Origin: Flavobacteriales bacterium
GTDB lineage: Bacteria > Bacteroidota > Bacteroidia > Flavobacteriales_G > Salibacteraceae
Direction of reading: 5' to 3'
Length of the DNA: 64,000 nt
Assembly: GCA_018660685.1 (NCBI GenBank)
Contig: JABJJW010000012.1
Location: forward strand, 248,001-312,000
The notes beneath the pieces were generated by a model, which searched no databases, was not told the DNA's origin, and worked only from the letters and a program-made list of their open reading frames with translations. Every line of letters starts with the position of its first letter. Position 1 is the first letter of the stretch. A program made the position numbers and the translations under genes. This document shows, in pieces, positions 15,549-61,946 of this stretch.

Positions 15549-17300
15549 TTATTTAGCGTCCTTCCCTACGTAGAACTCAACTTCCTTTTCGCTTTCGTTG
15601 CCCAGCATGTCCTTGGCAACAACTTTCACTTTGTACTTCTTGTTCTTGCGGAATCGGCTTAGCTCAGAAGCATCTAATGTTTGTGGAGAAGAGTAGAGCG
15701 TCAGAGCTCCTCCATCCATCGAGTACCTGATCTCTTTGGTACCTACTTTCTTGTCCGTTGCAGCAACATACATTCTTGTGTAGTTCGGATAAACTGGAAG
15801 ACCACCCTTAGTGCCAATCTTTTCAATGCTGAACTTGACGAAAATCTCAGGCGCTGTATTATCAACGTAGGCGCTGCTATGCTTATCGCCTTCTGCGTTA
15901 TTTACGTTGTCGGTTGATTTAAAATCAATCGTGTGATAACCTTCACTTGGTAGATTGAAAGCGCCGTATGTCTTGAATCCACCTCCATCAATTTGGTACT
16001 GTGTGGTTTTCACGCCTGATGCATCATCGCGGAAGCGAAGTGAGATTCCACTTTTGCTCGTAATGAATAGCGTATCCCGGTCAACAAACTGAGGGTTCGC
16101 ATATATAATTCCTGTTTCCGGTGCATCCACATCCATGAAGACATTGATCCAGTGATTACCACTAAGGTTATCGACTTGGTCATTAGCATCGTACTTCACA
16201 TTGTGAGTTCCTCGATTGGCCGGCATCTTGAAATCACTCGAGAATATGCCTCGTTCTCCTCCGTCAATTCGGTAATAGATGTTCTTCACACCGGCTTTGT
16301 TGTCTGTCGCGGCCAACGAAATGGTGGTTCGAGATGAGATGTATAGATAATTGCCTTGATGCTGATCTCCTTTAACTTGATGTGTTGGGACCGGTGGAAT
16401 CTTGTCGAGGTAGAATTTGAACGTAGAAGCACCTGCTCCTCCTTCTCCACCTTCCATATTCTTGACATTATCTACCGCGTAATACTTGAGTGTGTGTTCG
16501 CCGTCTGATAAGCCAGCCGTGGAAACTGGTCCATAATAACCTCTGGCATTCTTACCATCGAACGTGTAATAGGTCGTTCGAACTCCACTCAGGTTATCGG
16601 TACTCGTTAGCTTAAGCTTGGCTGTCGGAGAGAGTATTGTTCCACCCTTGTTTATTCCAACAATCTCATAAGATGTTTTAGGAGCAGTGAGGTCAACTGT
16701 GAAATCGGATGACTTCGTGTCCTCTGCATTTCCTACGAAGTCAACTGAATAGTAATACAATGACTGGGCTCCTTCTTTTCCCGCACTTACGGAAGATGAA
16801 TAATCAGAGAATCCACCACCCAGGGCATGCTGAGTTTGCTTCACTCCTGACACTCCATCTCTTGGTGTCAGCGTATATGTCAATCCCTTTCCGTAGAACA
16901 CTGTTCCTCCGCTTGAGTAGCGAGGTGCATTTTCAAATTTCAGGGAAGTTCTTGGTGCAAGACCATCAGCGAATACTTCATAGAGCACTTCTTGTTGCGG
17001 TTGTACCGTGCGACCTGTCTTAGGGTCAACAGCCCACTTACTTCTTACGTAATTTGGACCCTCCGTATCTAAATACATTGGCTCAGAGTATGCAGGATTC
17101 TTTCCTTTCAAGTCATAGTTCGTGCCATTAGGCTCCGTCGAAAACTTGAGATACATTGGAAGTGACTTCTGAACGAAAATGTCACCATCTCCATTGATGT
17201 AAACCATCTTTTCATAAGTTGGTTTATTAGGTGCTTGTGCAAAGACTTGAGAAGCAGTTGCAATCAAAACACTCAGAATAGTAAGAGTACGCAAGCTCAT
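15549..17300 (-). CDS. Secreted repeat protein with OmpL47-type beta domains, 583 aa
   Basis: Signal peptide at residues 1-21 (ending QVFAQ), followed by about five copies of a ~90-residue beta repeat. Each copy carries variants of LTSTDNLSGVRTTYYTFDGK ... Y-x-x-P ... G-x-H-x-x-x-Y-x-x-x-D-x-x-x-N-x-E, the pattern called OmpL47-type beta-barrel or Ig-like 'D-N-x-S-G-V' repeat. These are typical of exported surface or periplasmic proteins. No T9SS sorting domain, lipobox or catalytic motif is visible, so it is likely a periplasmic or outer-membrane-associated structural or adhesion protein. The C-terminal copy (FSIEKIGTKGGLPVYPNYTR onward) is the most divergent. It ends at a hairpin terminator and is preceded by the rplT terminator. 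Confidence 0.75.
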   Translation of the reverse strand: MSLRTLTILSVLIATASQVFAQAPNKPTYEKMVYINGDGDIFVQKSLPMYLKFSTEPNGTNYDLKGKNPAYSEPMYLDTEGPNYVRSKWAVDPKTGRTVQPQQEVLYEVFADGLAPRTSLKFENAPRYSSGGTVFYGKGLTYTLTPRDGVSGVKQTQHALGGGFSDYSSSVSAGKEGAQSLYYYSVDFVGNAEDTKSSDFTVDLTAPKTSYEIVGINKGGTILSPTAKLKLTSTDNLSGVRTTYYTFDGKNARGYYGPVSTAGLSDGEHTLKYYAVDNVKNMEGGEGGAGASTFKFYLDKIPPVPTHQVKGDQHQGNYLYISSRTTISLAATDNKAGVKNIYYRIDGGERGIFSSDFKMPANRGTHNVKYDANDQVDNLSGNHWINVFMDVDAPETGIIYANPQFVDRDTLFITSKSGISLRFRDDASGVKTTQYQIDGGGFKTYGAFNLPSEGYHTIDFKSTDNVNNAEGDKHSSAYVDNTAPEIFVKFSIEKIGTKGGLPVYPNYTRMYVAATDKKVGTKEIRYSMDGGALTLYSSPQTLDASELSRFRKNKKYKVKVVAKDMLGNESEKEVEFYVGKDAK

Positions 17301-29532: not shown

Positions 29533-32436
29533 ATGAAAAGGTTTCTACTATCTGCCTCTGCGGCACTTATTTCGTTTTCTGGCTTCTCGCAAGCTCAGAA
29601 CCAAGCGCAAGTGAGCCCGGAAATAGCGAATAAGAAAATCTCTATTCCGGTGCAAATGGTTGCTAACCCGAATCCTCAACCTCCCAAGGAGATCAAATCG
29701 TATCCTACATCAGGTCAACGAAATCTCTTAGAAGTTGAAATCGGTACATCAACTTACGACTTGCAATCTAACTCTGCTATTCAGTGGAGATTAATCAACC
29801 ATGAGAATGGTACTCTATCAGCTTCCTGGACGTACAGTAATCAAAATAGCTGGGCCACTCGTGGAACTGGTTATAATTTCTTTAACGGTACATCTTGGGG
29901 CAGCGCTCCAACTTCTGAAATCGAAACAGAAAGAACGGGTTGGCCAAGCATGATGGCAACATCAAGCGGCCGCGAAGTGATCGTTTCTCACAGTACAGCG
30001 AGTAGCATACTCAGAAAGGTAGAAAGAAACACAATCGGTTCTGGAACATGGGCGCAGGCTAATCAGGACACCTTGGCTTCGCAAGTATGGAACAGAGGTC
30101 AGGCCTCTGGAAATACACTTCATGTTGTTTGTATGACAACTCCCGCTGCAAATGGCGGAACAGTCTACAACGGCATGGATGGAGCATTCCTTTACAACCG
30201 ATCTACTGACGGTGGAATAAGTTGGGATATCATTGATTACCAAATTCCTGGAACTGATTCATCTTATTTCGATGGATTCGACGGTGATAGTTACTCAATC
30301 GACGCAAAAGGAAATACAGTTGCTGTTGTAGTTGGAGGCCTTGGAAGAGGTGTGCAGCTTTTCAAATCAACAAACAATGGAGTTTCTTGGACCAAGACTG
30401 ATGTTCTATTATCAGATGTATGGTTCGTAGAAAGTGCTACTGTAATCGATACAACTCTTGAGGATAGACTATACACTTCCGATGGAAACGTAAATGTTAT
30501 AATTGATAATGATGGAATGTGTCATATTACTTATGGTACAATGTACATTGCTAACGCTGATGTCACTGACGGATTGATCACATACTATCCAGGCACCAAC
30601 GGTATTGACTATTGGAACGAAGATTACCCTGGTCCTTATGGACTTACTATAACGGGTGCTCTCGACCTTGATAATTCAGGTGCTCTCGAGATCACTGATT
30701 GGGGTCAATATCGATTTGCTGGTCTGGCATCTCAACCTAAAGCAGGTATCGCTAGTGATGGGTGTATCTATCTTGCTTACAGCGCAGTTCAAGAATTGCT
30801 CTCGAATGGTTCACAAAACTATCGACACACATACGTTATGCGTTCTTGTGACGGTGGATGTTCTTGGTCTGAACCAATCGACGTTACTGGAGATCCTGCA
30901 AATGCATTCTCAGAATGTGTTTACGCTTCTATGGCGAGAAGAGTTGATGATGATGTCCACATGGTTTACATGAGTGATAACGAGCCAGGTATTGCCGTTT
31001 CAGGTGATGAGGATCCTGTTGTGACTAATAAAATCTTCTACTTGAAAGAGGATGTTGATCGTTTTGACACTACTGAGTTCTGTCCAGTTGCCATCGTTGG
31101 TGACAGCGAACTGTGTGTTGGATCAGGTGCTTCTGTAGCACTTTACGCGATTGGTTGTGCTGCAAGTTATACTTGGAGTGGACCAAGCGGATTCAGCAGC
31201 TCTAATCAAGTTGTAAATGTTGGAAATCTTGGAACTTACACTTGTGTATTCTCTACCGATTGCGGAAGCCAAACATTGACATTCAATGTTGTTGCTTACT
31301 CAGGAACTGGAGGGCCAAGCGTAACTATGAACGGTACAAACCTTAATATGTGTCCCGGTGATACATCAACCTTGACGGCAAATACGTCGGTTGGAGGTCT
31401 ATCCTATTTCTGGAGTACTGGTTCAAGTGATTCAGCAATCGTTGTTACAACTACTGGAACATTTACTGTAACAGTTTCTGACTGTAATGGTGGAACAACT
31501 GTAGCATCGATTACGATTACTCAACCTACTACTGCTCCTACAGCTGTTGTCGCTGGTGATCCAACGATTTGCCCAGGTGGTACTTCTGTGATTAATGTGT
31601 TCCCAGTATCTGCTGGTTCTTACAGCTGGAGTACAGGCGGGTCTGGAACATCTATTACCGTGAGTGCCGCTGGAACATACACTGTCACCGTTTCTAACTG
31701 TGGTGGATCTGCTACAGCAACTTATACTGTAACTGCTGAACCTCTACCTGTGGCTGTTGTTACTGCCCCAGCTACTGAAGGATGTGATGGTGATGTTCTC
31801 ACTGCTACCGCTTCTGGAGGTGACACATACGAATGGAGTGATGGATCTACAAGTGCGAGCATTTCGGTTAGCGTTGTATCAACTGGAACTTACACCGTAA
31901 CTGTTACAAATGCATGTGGTGATGAGGATACCACTTCTATCAACCTTACTATTCACGAATTGCCAGCTGCTCCTGTGATCAGCTCGACAAGTTCAGGGGT
32001 TACATCTTCACAAACTGGAGGTGGATCACACATGTGGTACGTTGGTGGAATTCTTCAGTCTGAATCAGGAAGCGTTCTCGGAAACGATGAAAGCTATGCT
32101 GGTCAGAACATCTACTGCATCTACACAGATGAGAATGGATGTGAGAGTGCTTCTTCTAATACTGTAGTTTCAGTTGAAGAATTGGGAGCAATCGCAACCA
32201 TCGGTGTTTATCCTAATCCAACAGATGGAAGATTCGAAATAAACTTCGGAGCATTCACTGGTGAGATGAACGTTGAGATTTCTAACAGCCTAGGACAAGT
32301 TGTTTACTCAACTCAACTACAGGTTAACGCAAATCAAATTGAAGCAATCGATCTAAGCGGACTCGTAAAAGGAGTTTATCAAGTTTCACTTCAGGGTGAG
32401 TCTGGTAAGCGAATTGAGAGCTTAATCATCGAATAA
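29533..32436 (+). CDS. T9SS-exported protein with Asp-box (BNR) repeats and Ig/PKD-like domains, 967 aa
   Basis: Signal peptide 1-20 (ending GFSQA), then a beta-propeller-like region with Asp-boxes STDGGISW (about residue 224), STNNGVSW (about 280) and SCDGGCSW (about 438), as in sialidase-type propellers; three to four beta-sandwich repeats (GASVALYAIGCAASYTWSGP, LTANTSVGGLSYFWSTGSSD, INVFPVSAGSYSWSTGGSGT) from about 520 to 830; and a C-terminal type A sorting domain (IGVYPNPTDGRFEINFGAFT ... IDLSGLVKGVYQVSLQ). It should cross the outer membrane through the type IX system and be anchored or released. Sialidase catalytic residues were not identified, so the enzymatic activity is unknown. Synonymous-codon use is unusually T-rich (ACT, GGT, GTT), which suggests high expression. 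Confidence 0.82.
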   Translation: MKRFLLSASAALISFSGFSQAQNQAQVSPEIANKKISIPVQMVANPNPQPPKEIKSYPTSGQRNLLEVEIGTSTYDLQSNSAIQWRLINHENGTLSASWTYSNQNSWATRGTGYNFFNGTSWGSAPTSEIETERTGWPSMMATSSGREVIVSHSTASSILRKVERNTIGSGTWAQANQDTLASQVWNRGQASGNTLHVVCMTTPAANGGTVYNGMDGAFLYNRSTDGGISWDIIDYQIPGTDSSYFDGFDGDSYSIDAKGNTVAVVVGGLGRGVQLFKSTNNGVSWTKTDVLLSDVWFVESATVIDTTLEDRLYTSDGNVNVIIDNDGMCHITYGTMYIANADVTDGLITYYPGTNGIDYWNEDYPGPYGLTITGALDLDNSGALEITDWGQYRFAGLASQPKAGIASDGCIYLAYSAVQELLSNGSQNYRHTYVMRSCDGGCSWSEPIDVTGDPANAFSECVYASMARRVDDDVHMVYMSDNEPGIAVSGDEDPVVTNKIFYLKEDVDRFDTTEFCPVAIVGDSELCVGSGASVALYAIGCAASYTWSGPSGFSSSNQVVNVGNLGTYTCVFSTDCGSQTLTFNVVAYSGTGGPSVTMNGTNLNMCPGDTSTLTANTSVGGLSYFWSTGSSDSAIVVTTTGTFTVTVSDCNGGTTVASITITQPTTAPTAVVAGDPTICPGGTSVINVFPVSAGSYSWSTGGSGTSITVSAAGTYTVTVSNCGGSATATYTVTAEPLPVAVVTAPATEGCDGDVLTATASGGDTYEWSDGSTSASISVSVVSTGTYTVTVTNACGDEDTTSINLTIHELPAAPVISSTSSGVTSSQTGGGSHMWYVGGILQSESGSVLGNDESYAGQNIYCIYTDENGCESASSNTVVSVEELGAIATIGVYPNPTDGRFEINFGAFTGEMNVEISNSLGQVVYSTQLQVNANQIEAIDLSGLVKGVYQVSLQGESGKRIESLIIE

Positions 32437-54544: not shown

Positions 54545-55558
54545 CTAGATACTTCTAAAGACGTTCAAAGTTTCATCAATTTGATTTGAAGAAATGTCAA
54601 GGTGGGTTACAAATCTCACCTTGCCCTTTCCAAAATTCACAGCCAATATGTTCTTTCTACTCAGAACTTCTAAGAAATCGTTCTGATGCTTGCCCTCTTT
54701 CAACTCAGCAACGACAATGTTCGTTTCTGGTTCTAACACGCGTTCAATCCACGAGCAATCTACCAGCCCGTCAGCCAGCATTTTTGCTTTAGAGTGATCT
54801 TCAGCGAGTCTTTCAATATGAATCTCCAAGGCGAAAATTCCAGCTGCAGCAACGTAACCAGCCTGACGCATTCCTCCTCCGAAAACTTTTCTCACTCTCC
54901 TGGCCTGCTTCATCATTGTCTTATCCCCAAGTAAAAGAGATCCAATTGGACATCCTAAGCCCTTACTCAGGCAAATCGATATGGTATCGAAATTCAACCC
55001 ATAATCTTTGGGAGAATGACCTGTTGCGACCAATGCATTGAAAAGACGAGCTCCATCCAAGTGCATTTTCAGTCCGGCATCTCGGGCAGTGGCTGAAATA
55101 CTTGCAATTTCAGAAAGGTCCCAAGTAACTCCACCTCCTTTGTTGCATGTGTTTTCGATGGATACCAGAGAAGAAATTGGAAAATGTGGGTCATCTGGGT
55201 TTATAGCTTCTTCAACCATTTCAGAAGTAAACCTTCCTTGGTCTCCCCGGAGAAGACGAACGGAACATCCCGAATTAAAAGCAATTCCACCCCCTTCATA
55301 ATTGTAAATGTGAGAGAGCTCGTGACAAATTACCTCTTGACCAGGTTGGGTATGAACTTTAATCGCAATTTGATTGGTCATAGTTCCAGATGGGCAAAAG
55401 AGCGCAGCCTCCATTCCAAACAATTTTGCCGCTTTTTCTTCCAACGCATTGACGGTCGGATCATCTTCAAAAACGTCGTCTCCCACTGCCGCACTCGTCA
55501 TAGCTTGAAGCATTTCGGGGGTCGCCTTCGTTACCGTATCACTTCTAAAATCAATCAT
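54545..55558 (-). CDS. ltaE: Low-specificity L-threonine aldolase
   Basis: A 337-residue PLP enzyme that cleaves threonine and allo-threonine to glycine and acetaldehyde. It opens [20 protein letters not shown] and has [21 protein letters not shown]-type Asp contact ([15 protein letters not shown]) and the PLP-binding Lys199 in [15 protein letters not shown]. Start at ATG 55558, directly after the stop of the O-methyltransferase gene (55559). It is the last gene of the M16-Wzy-OMT-ltaE operon on the minus strand. Confidence 0.95.
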
Positions 55559-56203
55559 CTAAGCAATTTTTCGAGCTATCATCAATCCGTCACGAACCGG
55601 CAAAAGCACATTGTCCAAATTAGGATTATCTGTCACCAATTCATTGTACTCATGCAGCGCTGCCGTTTCCTCGTCCATGTTTCGAGGATCAGATGTCACC
55701 TTTCCGCTCCACAGGACATTATCTGCAATGATGTATCCACCTACGTTCACTTTTGGCAATACCTGTTTTAAATAGTTTGGATAATTCCGTTTATCCGCAT
55801 CGAGAAAGACTAGGTCAAATGGCGCTTGCAATGAATCAATTACGTCTCCTGCATCTCCAATATGAAGATGCAGATTCTCGCGATACTCGGACTTTGCAAA
55901 GAAAGCCTCAACGACTGACTGAAGTTCGTCATTCACCTCAATCGTGTCGACGCGTCCACCGTCCGCCAATCCTTCAGCCCAACAAAGTGCAGAATAGCCT
56001 GTGTAAGTTCCAACTTCCACTACGTGCTTTGGGCTAATCATTTTACTCAACATGGCTAGTACACGGCCTTGTAGGTGGCCTGCCAACATTCTTGGCATCA
56101 AAACCTTCGCGTTTGTGAAACGATTGATCTCAGCAAGCAAATCAGATTCTACTGCGCTAAATTGCTCGCTATAACCCTCTATTTCTTCTGGTAAAAAGTC
56201 CAT
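55559..56203 (-). CDS. SAM-dependent O-methyltransferase (CCoAOMT-like)
   Basis: A 214-residue class I methyltransferase of the caffeoyl-CoA/catechol O-methyltransferase family. SAM motif I is VVEVGTYTGYSALCWAEGL, the acidic residue of motif II is DTIEVNDEL, and the metal-binding region is LVFLDADKRNYPNYL with DNVLWSGKV further on. A divalent cation and a catechol-like acceptor are typical of the family. The acceptor here is unknown. The ATG at 56203 overlaps the last base of the O-antigen-ligase gene upstream, and its stop adjoins ltaE. Confidence 0.93.
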   Translation of the reverse strand: MDFLPEEIEGYSEQFSAVESDLLAEINRFTNAKVLMPRMLAGHLQGRVLAMLSKMISPKHVVEVGTYTGYSALCWAEGLADGGRVDTIEVNDELQSVVEAFFAKSEYRENLHLHIGDAGDVIDSLQAPFDLVFLDADKRNYPNYLKQVLPKVNVGGYIIADNVLWSGKVTSDPRNMDEETAALHEYNELVTDNPNLDNVLLPVRDGLMIARKIA

Positions 56204-58244: not shown

Positions 58245-59474
58245 TTATTCAGGCACGTAGCTCAACTGGCTCATCGTTCCACTCTCAAACAACTCTGTGG
58301 CAAGATCTTGAATTTCGCGAGCCGTGATTGACTCAATCTCCTTCTTCATTTCAGCGAAAGAGTCCACGCGATCAAAATGAAGAAGGCTTTTACCAAGAGT
58401 GAGCATGAGGTTGCTGCGGTTTTCTTGTGAAACTGCAATTTGACCGATTAATTGGTTGTGGGCGGCGGTCAGCATTCTATCTGTGAGTCGACGATCTTTC
58501 AAGATGTCTAGCTCCTTTTTTATCAGCCGATTAACCTTGTTGAAATGACGTTTATCAGTTCCAAAATATATCTCAAAGATTCCGCAATCAGTATAGGCGT
58601 TATAATGTGATTCAATGTAATAACAATAGCCCATCTTCTCTCTAATCTTGAGGTTTAGCCGACTGTTCAAAGCTGGACCACCGAGAATATTATTGAGCAT
58701 AACCATCGTGCGCACGCGATCATCATCTAATCCGAAAGTTGATTTTCCGATCAACGAATGAACCTGATGAACATTCGCTTTCTTTTCAATTTTAAACTCG
58801 GCCGACTTCGGCTTAACGCGAGTGACATTGACTGATTCTTGGAGTTGAATGGGTTCAAGAATTCTCTTGCAGAATGACCTAAGTTTTCGTTTACTCAAAT
58901 TACCAACGCAAGCGAAAACGATCTGATCTGTTTTATAAAGTCTGTCCACAAAGCGTTTGATATCAGTACGTGTCAAACTTGAAATGTTTTCCTCACTTCC
59001 TAGTATCGGTCTTCCGAGAGAATGCTCTGGATACATCAGTTCTTCAAACTCGTCCACGAGCATTTCATCCGGATTGTCTTTGTAAGAATTTATTTCATCC
59101 TTAATCACAGATATTTCCTTCTTGATTTCTTTTTCTGGGAATTTAGATGAAAAGGTCACGTCGACTAGTAATTCGGCTGCGCGTTCAAAGTGTTCTTTCA
59201 GAGCGGTTGCATAGACACAAGTTTCTTCCTTGGTCGTATATGCATTGATTTCACCGCCAACAGAATCTATCCTTGTTAGTATATGAAAAGCCTTGCGGCG
59301 CTGTGTACCCTTAAATAAGCCATGCTCGATGAGGTGGGCAATTCCACTTTCATCATGAGTTTCATCACGAGAACCAGCGTTAATAATGAATCCGCAATGA
59401 ACCGTCATTATATTTGCGTCCTCCACGTGAAGCACGCGAAGACCATTGGGGAGTCTGAGGATGTCGAATTCCAT
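58245..59474 (-). CDS. M16-family zinc metalloprotease
   Basis: A 409-residue insulinase-like protease. The inverted zinc motif HxxEH is intact as SGIAHLIEHGLFKGTQRRKA (His47, Glu50, His51), followed by GGEINAYTTKEETCVYATAL. The second half has the R/Y-type domain (GGPALNSRLNLKIREKMGYC). Homologues work as processing peptidase or peptide-degrading pairs; a single gene suggests a dimer of identical subunits. It is the first gene of the minus-strand operon and lies 90 bp from the divergent PorE-like gene. Confidence 0.93.
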   Translation of the reverse strand: MEFDILRLPNGLRVLHVEDANIMTVHCGFIINAGSRDETHDESGIAHLIEHGLFKGTQRRKAFHILTRIDSVGGEINAYTTKEETCVYATALKEHFERAAELLVDVTFSSKFPEKEIKKEISVIKDEINSYKDNPDEMLVDEFEELMYPEHSLGRPILGSEENISSLTRTDIKRFVDRLYKTDQIVFACVGNLSKRKLRSFCKRILEPIQLQESVNVTRVKPKSAEFKIEKKANVHQVHSLIGKSTFGLDDDRVRTMVMLNNILGGPALNSRLNLKIREKMGYCYYIESHYNAYTDCGIFEIYFGTDKRHFNKVNRLIKKELDILKDRRLTDRMLTAAHNQLIGQIAVSQENRSNLMLTLGKSLLHFDRVDSFAEMKKEIESITAREIQDLATELFESGTMSQLSYVPE

Positions 59475-59564: not shown

Positions 59565-61547
59565 ATGCAAAAGAAATTTTTGAACCTAATCGCAGCTACT
59601 CTTTTATCGCTCCTCGCGATTAGTTCATTTGCCCAAGAAGGAGAAGGCTCTGATGCCTCCGGTTCATTTAAGCGTAGCCTGTATGAGGCAGATTTGCTTT
59701 TCAATGACGGCAGCTACTTACGTGCTCTTGAGGTTTACGATAGCCTTTGGGACATCAGACCAAATCAAATCTATCTTCAATACATGACAGGTGTCTGTCA
59801 CATCTATAAATCTGATGGACGAGAAAAGGCCTTCGATATTTTAAAGGAGCTCAAAGGCGAACCAGGTTTCGATGAGGTTACTTTTTACATGGCCCGAGCG
59901 AAGCACCTCAATTACAATTTTCAAGAAGCCATCGATCTATACAATGAGTTTCTCGAAGTTGATAAACCTTCCGGTTCCAGAAGGATAAACACCTTACAAT
60001 TCATAGAAAATTGCAAGAATGGAATCGAGATCATGAGTCGAAGAATTGGCTTGAGTCTTGAAATGCTCGTTCCTCCAAGTAATGATCGCAACTCTCAATA
60101 CAGTCCTGTTCTCAGCCCTGATGGCATGAAGCTGTATTATACGAATCGTGGAGAGGATAGTAAGGGAGACATGATGGATGAAAAGTCCAAAAAAACAACC
60201 CTCGGCAAACACTACGAAGACATTTTTGTTGCTGAAAATATCGGCTCAGATGATGAAATTGTATTCAGTGAAGGAACGAGCCTAAGTGACAATATCAATC
60301 TGCCAGGAATTCATGAAGCTCCCTTAAGCCTTTCGTACAACAATCAAATGCTATTTGTATATGTCAGTGGAGCCAAGGCCAATGAAGATATCTACGTTAG
60401 CTACAATCAGAACGACACTGGCTGGACGGTACCAATAATCGTGAAGGGAATAAACACTCCACATTGGGAAGGTCACGCAATGCTGGGACCAGATAACAAA
60501 ACGCTTTTCTTCTCCTCAGATCGCCCTGGAGGATATGGTAAACGTGACTTGTACATGTCAACCATGAAACCTGACAGCACATATGAGAGAGCGGTTAATT
60601 TAGGACCAAAAATCAACACTCCATTTAACGAGGATGCTCCGTTCATATATACGGATGGAAAGTCATTGTACTTCGCATCAGAAGCACATGGTTCTATGGG
60701 TGGTTATGACATTTTCTATACGACCTACGACAGCGCATCCCAGACTTGGGACGACCAACAAAACCTAGGTTATCCAATCAACACTACTGATGATGATCGA
60801 TTCTACTACATCTCTGTGGATGGTGAATGGGGCTACTTCTCATCTGCTCGAGGTAGCGGTGAAAACCTCCATGATATATATCGCATAAAGCCAGGAACAT
60901 TTGAAAGGCTCAACTCTCTTGTCCTCCTTATAGGAACTATTTACATTGATGATGTTCCGAGTTCAGCCATAGCTAAAATAATGGCCGAACCAACCGGTGA
61001 TGTTCTTGCAACATTGGTTTCTGACAGCATCACAGGTGAATTCATCTACTCTTTATTACCGGGGCGAGAGTATAAAATCTCATTGCTCGCCGATGGATTT
61101 CCTCCAAAAATTGAATACGTAGAAGTTCCACCTATTAATCAAGGCGTGATGCGCATTGAACACAGATTTGACTTCTACACAAAAGGTTATCTAGCAGCGA
61201 ACGACACAAATGGAAATCTTCAAGATGAACTCAACAAGCTTGAGGTTGACTCCAGTGATCAAATGGGTGTGTGCCCTGTTGAACCAGAGCGCGAAGAACT
61301 TACTCCAGAAGAAATTGCTAGCGGTTGTGCTTTCAGAGTACAGGTGGGTGCCTACAGGAATCCAGGCAAATTCCGCTATGAATTCCTCAGGGAATTAGGA
61401 GAGGTTGAGATCAAAGGATATCCCGACGGAATTACTCGATATCTAATGGGTCAGAAGTTCACGAAGCGATCGGAGGCGGAAGTACTCAGACAGAAATGTG
61501 TGCTTGCAGGACAGTGGGACGCATGGATTACCGTTCGAAGAGAGTAA
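59565..61547 (+). CDS. PorE-like envelope protein: TPR, beta-propeller, carboxypeptidase-regulatory-like domain and SPOR-like C-terminus
   Basis: A 660-residue exported protein from the ATG at 59565 (MQKKFLNLIAATLLSLLAIS signal peptide, ending FAQ); an in-frame upstream ATG at 59520 adds 15 unlike residues. Domains: TPR helices about 30-155; WD40-like PD40 repeats about 170-420 with the blocks YSPVLSPDGMKLYYTNRGED, LFFSSDRPGGYGKRDLYMS, LYFASEAHGSMGGYDIFYTT and WGYFSSARGSGENLHDIY; a beta domain about 425-530 that resembles the carboxypeptidase regulatory module (GTIYIDDVPSSAIAKIMAEP); and a C-terminal 75 residues, CAFRVQVGAYRNPGKFRYEF ... DAWITVRRE, resembling a SPOR domain. This order is that of PorE, a type IX secretion anchor, where the last domain is OmpA-like. 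Confidence 0.82.
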   Translation: MQKKFLNLIAATLLSLLAISSFAQEGEGSDASGSFKRSLYEADLLFNDGSYLRALEVYDSLWDIRPNQIYLQYMTGVCHIYKSDGREKAFDILKELKGEPGFDEVTFYMARAKHLNYNFQEAIDLYNEFLEVDKPSGSRRINTLQFIENCKNGIEIMSRRIGLSLEMLVPPSNDRNSQYSPVLSPDGMKLYYTNRGEDSKGDMMDEKSKKTTLGKHYEDIFVAENIGSDDEIVFSEGTSLSDNINLPGIHEAPLSLSYNNQMLFVYVSGAKANEDIYVSYNQNDTGWTVPIIVKGINTPHWEGHAMLGPDNKTLFFSSDRPGGYGKRDLYMSTMKPDSTYERAVNLGPKINTPFNEDAPFIYTDGKSLYFASEAHGSMGGYDIFYTTYDSASQTWDDQQNLGYPINTTDDDRFYYISVDGEWGYFSSARGSGENLHDIYRIKPGTFERLNSLVLLIGTIYIDDVPSSAIAKIMAEPTGDVLATLVSDSITGEFIYSLLPGREYKISLLADGFPPKIEYVEVPPINQGVMRIEHRFDFYTKGYLAANDTNGNLQDELNKLEVDSSDQMGVCPVEPEREELTPEEIASGCAFRVQVGAYRNPGKFRYEFLRELGEVEIKGYPDGITRYLMGQKFTKRSEAEVLRQKCVLAGQWDAWITVRRE

Positions 61548-61550
61548 CTC

Positions 61551-61946
61551 TTAAACGTCCATTTCATCAAGGATTTCTTGCAGATTTGAAAGAAGTATCG
61601 GCTTAGACATGTAGGCCTTCACAAATGCGCTTTCTTCAGAACGCTCTTTATCTTCTCTCAAAGAAGAGGAAGTCACAATGACCACATCTATATGATCGGT
61701 TTTCGAAGATGGGAATTTCGCCAACTCATCTAAGAATTCGTGGCCATTCATTTCCGGCATGTTCAAATCCAGTAGAACAAGAAGCTTGTCGCCAGAGTAA
61801 TTTCCAGAATCAACAAACTCTAGAATTTCCTTACCGGTTTGGAATTCCTTCTTCGGAAGTTGAGGTAATAGCCGTGCCAGTATCCGATCGCATATAAAAC
61901 GGTCGAATTTATTATCATCCACTATGGCACAGTCCTTCCAACTCAT
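61551..61946 (-). CDS. Single-domain response regulator (CheY-like)
   Basis: A 131-residue receiver domain without output domain. Acidic pair at VDDNKFDRF (Asp10, Asp11), phosphoacceptor Asp60 in LVLLDLNMPEMNG, the Ser/Thr switch in VIVTSSS and Lys115 in YMSKPI. It may relay to another kinase or serve a hybrid phosphorelay; no kinase gene is adjacent. It is convergent with the PorE-like gene, with 3 bp between their stops. Confidence 0.93.
   Translation of the reverse strand: MSWKDCAIVDDNKFDRFICDRILARLLPQLPKKEFQTGKEILEFVDSGNYSGDKLLVLLDLNMPEMNGHEFLDELAKFPSSKTDHIDVVIVTSSSLREDKERSEESAFVKAYMSKPILLSNLQEILDEMDV

Follow-up and report, generated by a model that had tools for sequence, protein, structure and literature searches.

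A gene for an exported protein of marine Bacteroidota that joins a PorE-like scaffold to a SPOR-type tail has been found at 59565..61547 (+ strand) of the window, i.e., the whole stretch of 64,000 nucleotides analysed here (G000:C22:248001-312000), which lies within a 2.58-Mb genome closely related to metagenome-assembled genomes of Salibacteraceae / Flavobacteriales. The open reading frame is intact and encodes 660 residues, for which the sequence, Pfam and a full-length model point to a Sec signal followed by a TPR region, a PD40 β-propeller, a carboxypeptidase-regulatory-like domain (CRD) and a SPOR domain. The gene represents a separate orthologous group with its own conserved synteny, distinct from PorE. 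At a probability of roughly 0.6, we infer that the protein belongs to the PorE/CHU_0125 superfamily as a CpoB-TolB-like scaffold of the periplasm in which SPOR replaces the OmpA/Pal module, and which would aid outer-membrane constriction or the separation of daughter cells beside PorE, rather than being a part of the motor of the type IX secretion system (T9SS).

How the outer membrane constricts when Bacteroidota divide without a recognised Tol-Pal system is a standing question. According to the accessible text of PMC12204202, no tol-pal loci have been found in Bacteroidota, and PorE is put forward as a fusion of CpoB, TolB and Pal that tethers the outer membrane; the concept of PorE as a compact Tol-Pal that may travel to the septum has been public since 2025. 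A sister protein that naturally carries a septal-wall domain as its anchor makes the idea of a septal scaffold testable, regarding both whether the scaffold reaches the septum and whether the state of the wall, with or without peptides, sets the position of each sister. The main text of the same article contains no word beginning with "SPOR" (PMC12204202), and in the open-licence literature, preprints being outside this scope, no description of a SPOR-ended PD40 protein has been found; such proteins may figure in databases under the label "SPOR domain-containing".

Domain layout and the C-terminal tail

All parts of the gene are read from the + strand. The signal peptide predicted from the sequence (residues 1-23, ending in SFA before Q; 59565..59633) has no lipobox cysteine, and among 45 homologues with a complete leader, 38 are without Cys at positions 16-40 and a single one gives a lipobox-like match. 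Since the OmpA-ended PorE of the same genome is likewise without a clear lipobox, this absence is only weakly diagnostic in the lineage. The TPR region (residues 33-158, 59661..60038) has been recognised by helices in the AF2 model and by weak Pfam TPR matches, the β-propeller (residues 165-445, 60057..60899) by PF07676 (6.3e-17) and the model, and the CRD (residues 451-537, 60915..61175) by its CRD-like sandwich in the model, for which Pfam gives no match on the focal protein and sub-cut-off matches in relatives. A helical or disordered linker (residues 538-584, 61176..61316; modelled with pLDDT of about 45-53 in blocks 541-570) leads to the SPOR domain (residues 585-659, 61317..61541), which has been delimited by profiles and a model of the tail. 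In the full-length AF2 model (pLDDT 83.2, pTM 0.63), the order TPR / propeller / CRD is visible, with a compact C-terminal domain after the linker, and the PorE-like order claimed in the preliminary description is thus borne out by the model and the Pfam PD40 match alike. A fold search with the full-length model has returned mostly generic propellers, TolB (7mx5) being ranked fourth among many unrelated ones, and the TolB family TIGR02800 yields a weak, non-significant match on the focal protein (E 0.032, 13.1 bits; cut-off 343).

The preliminary description had further read the C-terminal ∼75 residues as SPOR-like instead of OmpA-like and had proposed an HMM search of this end. Such a search with Pfam gives neither a SPOR nor an OmpA (PF00691) match at E ≤ 5, be it for the focal protein or for its last 90 residues, but homologous C-termini do match Pfam SPOR (PF05036), in 11/16 sequences (best 2.2e-5) and in 24/51 (best 1.1e-5). 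An independent profile, built from distant relatives only, excluding the focal sequence together with 12 relatives close to it, matches focal residues 585-657 at E 2e-25 and recognises 56/56 SPOR-ended rows, whereas 0/16 OmpA-ended or other rows and 0/72 shuffles have been matched. Against the PDB, profile A1 of the tail family finds the CwlC SPOR domain (1x60, E 0.0064) as the sole match up to E 10, and the larger profile A3 finds 1x60 at E 0.0079 together with two chance matches at E of about 0.5 within the same limit. In the organism's own genome, A3 overlaps four of the six Pfam-SPOR places (8.1e-12, 6.3e-11, 7.6e-11, 2.6e-8), the remaining two being missed.

Modelled by itself, the tail (mean pLDDT 78.7) shows the β-α-β-β-α-β order of elements that is found in SPOR domains. 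Its structural matches are CwlC 1x60 with Z 9.4 (rmsd 3.6, 75 aligned), the exported Burkholderia protein 6ozd with Z 8.5, and RlpA with denuded glycan (6i09) with Z 8.4 (rmsd 2.0, 69 aligned), the same score being obtained for RlpA without glycan. The scores for FtsN and DamX (Z 5.5) and DedD (Z 5.2) are in the range of unrelated α/β folds, and the structural weight is therefore placed on the top matches together with the sequence. As judged from these profiles and the modelled fold, the focal tail is a real SPOR domain, and because its relatives and its fold pass where the single sequence does not, the Pfam miss is regarded as a limit of sensitivity.

Occurrence, neighbours and descent

Among the matches listed, full-length ones that include the tail have been obtained from 12/12 genomes of the same genus and from two (G015, G025) of the family's 22 remaining genomes; other families have related forms. 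The 53 named loci all stem from Bacteroidota metagenome-assembled genomes; their proteins carry 1-3 SPOR copies each, with the SPOR end in every case reaching the C-terminus or stopping no more than about 70 residues short of it. In an evenly drawn class sample of 197 genomes, A3 matches below 1e-18 occur in 42, G035 being counted here for a 222-aa frame only, and at the loose cut of 1e-8 they occur in 128, a number which overstates the family because it includes other SPOR proteins, with frames of roughly 200 and roughly 2000 aa. One in-frame stop each, maybe an assembly error, has been noticed in the orthologues L017, L024, L019 and L027 (G002, G008, G011, G015); the one in G002 falls within the SPOR domain.

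Upstream, on the opposite strand, the gene is flanked by a divergent M16-type peptidase with YfmF/YfmH-family matches (58245..59474, −), which recurs close by at 18/54 loci, by a SAM methyltransferase with weak methyltransferase matches (55559..56203, −; 34/54 loci, some with contig ends nearby), for which the subgroup name "O-methyltransferase-like" is our own label, and by a threonine-aldolase-type PLP enzyme (54545..55558, −; 27/54). A convergent single-domain response regulator (61551..61946, −) has been seen in 7/54 loci. The conserved neighbours are metabolic, with no divisome or wall genes among them. They have been considered as functional partners and set aside in this respect; being conserved yet metabolic, they are counted as evidence of orthology only.

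In NCBIfam, the best match of the focal protein is CHU_0125_OmpA (NF053607) with 154.6 bits over residues 42-505 (cut-off 620), T9SS_PorE (NF052230) giving 129.7 bits (cut-off 600), and neither match extends to the focal C-terminus. An OmpA-ended PorE is encoded elsewhere in the same genome (G000:C4:132787-134676; T9SS_PorE 465 bits over nearly the whole model, below the cut-off of 600), and a second OmpA-ended protein at C22:232 kb (T9SS_PorE 279 bits) adjoins queE; a co-occurrence of porE with queEC is described in the available part of PMC12204202. The PorE on C4 is located in a block of glutamine synthetase III (GlnA-III), PorE, an AIRS-like gene and prfA, the order of which is kept in two distant genomes (PorE identity 46-47%). 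The SPOR gene is not in this block and adjoins the M16 peptidase and the methyltransferase instead. Of 32 chosen carriers of the SPOR gene (G015, G025, 13 genomes from the genus and 17 from the class), 30 also give a match to the PorE model at 1e-90 or better, the exceptions being G002 (82% complete) and G010 (86% complete). In the distant genomes G073 and G199, which belong to one family, the SPOR gene and PorE are found on the same strand, two genes apart, a third protein with an OmpA end being encoded between them; this proximity may be due to chance.

In trees built on the TPR-propeller core, which are unrooted and thus do not distinguish gain from loss, the SPOR-ended rows come together in a single group with good support (96/98), which also takes in one OmpA-ended row, L087a, as sister to its SPOR-ended tandem neighbour L087b (92/82). 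The respective locus in a Flavobacteriales metagenome-assembled genome (L087:2850-8408) encodes an OmpA-ended scaffold, which has no ATG where it probably starts, followed by a SPOR-ended one in tandem. For SPOR repeats in L087a, Pfam has given 17.2 bits, below the cut-off, and the independent profile none. A single origin of the SPOR end in its simple form has been tried and rejected, with AU p values for a SPOR-only clade of 0.024 (partial L087a row) and 0.0065 (full row). Given the position of L087a inside the SPOR clade, the anchors have been swapped at least twice. The long-branched L134 (PD40 + SPOR) falls outside the SPOR clade in the first tree with an unsure placement; the second tree leaves out L134, L142, L144, L138b, L043, L034 and L100b, and long branches, including the genome's own PorE, are unsurely placed.

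Several other SPOR, PD40 and wall proteins have been noted alongside. L134 itself (L134:1814-7552, G000:C9) is a 1913-aa frame in which TPR, a weak PD40 match and a long central stretch precede two SPOR domains close to the end, and many genomes of the class have SPOR-bearing frames of 1535-2601 aa. Another SPOR architecture has been seen in a 701-aa protein (L139:2104-4206, G000:C22:176 kb), which combines a DUF6089-type part (PF19573) with a near-C-terminal SPOR domain. At L138:9263-14339 (G000:C22:43-48 kb), tandem PD40 proteins are encoded, one OmpA-ended and the other with an end that resembles a worn OmpA, the latter seemingly split from its TPR part. An unusual 487-aa ORF (L184:568-2028, G000:C17) joins Peptidase_M56, Peptidase_M23 and Amidase_3, i.e., a BlaR1-like part and wall hydrolases, and the window itself encodes a 583-aa protein (15549-17300, −) with five matches to an OmpL47-type barrel domain (NF047446, 206.6 bits).

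Predicted glycan binding, secretion and the likely role

Within the SPOR domain, Q593, Y597, I623 and R625 line up with known glycan-contact positions. In the RlpA-glycan structure, as reported in the accessible text of PMC6895207, the side chains of Q270, R302 and R309 touch the sugar, F274 bends the chain, and R311 completes a basic patch that is formed by R285 in FtsN and by K47 and K42 in CwlC. Q593 (RlpA Q270 / FtsN Q251) and Y597 (RlpA F274) are each kept in 51/51 sequences and R625 (RlpA R309 / FtsN R285 / CwlC K47) in 48/51, the pairing of R625 with K47 being taken from the HMMER alignment and that of the RlpA and FtsN positions from the motif. The conserved Gln and basic residue fit a predicted binding of denuded glycan. 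One could imagine that the domain has abandoned glycan and now serves as a protein-protein module, as Pfam fails to recognise SPOR in the focal sequence and, in the alignment, no basic residue stands at the equivalents of RlpA R302 and R311, only one of the three RlpA arginines being matched. We regard this as very improbable, for the contact Gln is invariant and R625 nearly so across a divergent family, and FtsN likewise contributes one arginine to the patch (PMC6895207, accessible text).

The preliminary description had gone further and suggested an anchor that fixes the T9SS motor to septal or denuded peptidoglycan. The part concerning denuded peptidoglycan agrees with the residues above; the secretion part has found no support, and the likelihood of such an anchor is rated as low. 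It draws on the domain order and boundaries close to those of PorE, on the T9SS in the genome (GldL on C15, SprA on C16), on cargo in the window, and on the two genomes in which PorE lies two genes away on the strand of the SPOR gene. As for cargo, at least two proteins had been claimed, of which one has been confirmed (29533-32433; TIGR04183, 41 bits) among ten window proteins scanned. Against the anchor stand the better PorE in the same genome (465 vs. 130 bits), so that the objection named beforehand, a canonical OmpA-ended PorE elsewhere in the genome, largely applies, and the presence of PorE in nearly all carriers; the focal protein as the PorE of this organism is not supported. The suggested synteny has not been found either, since SprA and GldL are on other contigs than the SPOR gene on C22 and no T9SS gene has been recognised near it in the survey of conserved neighbours at 54 loci. 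Co-occurrence as such is uninformative because GldL is present in 189/197 class genomes; of the eight GldL-negative ones, two (G097, G185), both fragmented, have an A3 match. Yet 63 of the 189 GldL genomes are without an A3 match even at 1e-8, which argues that the SPOR protein is not a required part of the T9SS, as does its restriction to 42/197 genomes below 1e-18. Somewhat less remote, though still unlikely, is an adaptor of general use in the periplasm, which would bind naked glycan wherever it occurs (wall turnover, poles) or stimulate wall enzymes in the manner of DedD and DamX towards PBP1A/1B, without any part in tethering the outer membrane. The soluble signal peptide without a lipobox and the TPR and propeller as protein-binding folds agree with it, as does the stimulation of PBPs by SPOR proteins in E. 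coli (PMC7642682, in its accessible part); the kinship with the outer-membrane-tether proteins PorE and CHU_0125 argues against it, and no link to synthases has been seen in this analysis.

The OmpA domain of PorE holds the stem peptide L-Ala-D-Glu-mDAP-D-Ala (PMC7192894), and SPOR binds only stem-free glycan, as stem peptides would clash and block binding (PMC6895207; both as far as the available texts go). Consequently, the exchange of the tail changes the wall state that is recognised, and the two anchors read opposite states. Judging from known SPOR behaviour, amidases would strip the stem peptides at the septum and the SPOR domain would dock on the naked septal glycan, where the TPR/propeller end may hold an outer-membrane or wall-remodelling partner, the protein acting next to PorE and not replacing it. 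The tether half of this mechanism is predicted from the domains, the protein having no lipid anchor. Against the reading count the metabolic neighbours, the single matched arginine and the weak resemblance of the propeller to TolB. A role in outer-membrane constriction or tethering is the best guess because of the published proposal that PorE fuses CpoB, TolB and Pal, and because loss of the OmpA-ended CHU_0125 increases vesicles (PMC5891637, accessible text). The genome encodes two Amidase_3 proteins; the C-terminus of one Amidase_3 enzyme (L183:1051-2304, G000:C12) matches the A3 SPOR profile (6.1e-6), with no Pfam SPOR match. Tentatively, one may postulate that Bacteroidota share out the work of Pal, the PorE/CHU_0125 types holding the mature, peptide-bearing wall and the SPOR-ended types awaiting the amidase-stripped septal wall. 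The SPOR form would then be an amidase-gated factor of outer-membrane constriction with an exchangeable tail, as might be suggested by the OmpA-ended copy that falls within the SPOR clade and has a SPOR-ended copy as its tandem neighbour.

Comparison with known systems

RlpA, FtsN, DamX, DedD and CwlC attach SPOR to a lytic enzyme, an amidase or a membrane helix. The focal protein has the C-terminal SPOR fold and the Gln/Arg contacts in common with them, but its SPOR domain is joined to a TPR-PD40-CRD scaffold. With Tol-Pal it shares a CpoB-like TPR and a TolB-like propeller, which are combined on one chain as proposed for PorE (PMC12204202, available text), whereas a Pal/OmpA module is missing and the sequence match to TolB falls short of significance. 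TPR and PD40 are also found in CHU_0125, which in contrast has an OmpA end, while the focal protein gives no OmpA match and scores far under the cut-off of that family. The closest correspondence is with PorE, for which the accessible text of PMC7192894 places the TPR of P. gingivalis PG1058 at 25-149, the propeller at 167-435, the CRD at 441-527 and the last domain at 534-668, the first three following one another as they do in the focal protein. Unlike PorE, which is a lipoprotein, the focal protein is without a lipobox, it ends in SPOR instead of OmpA, and it coexists with a PorE.
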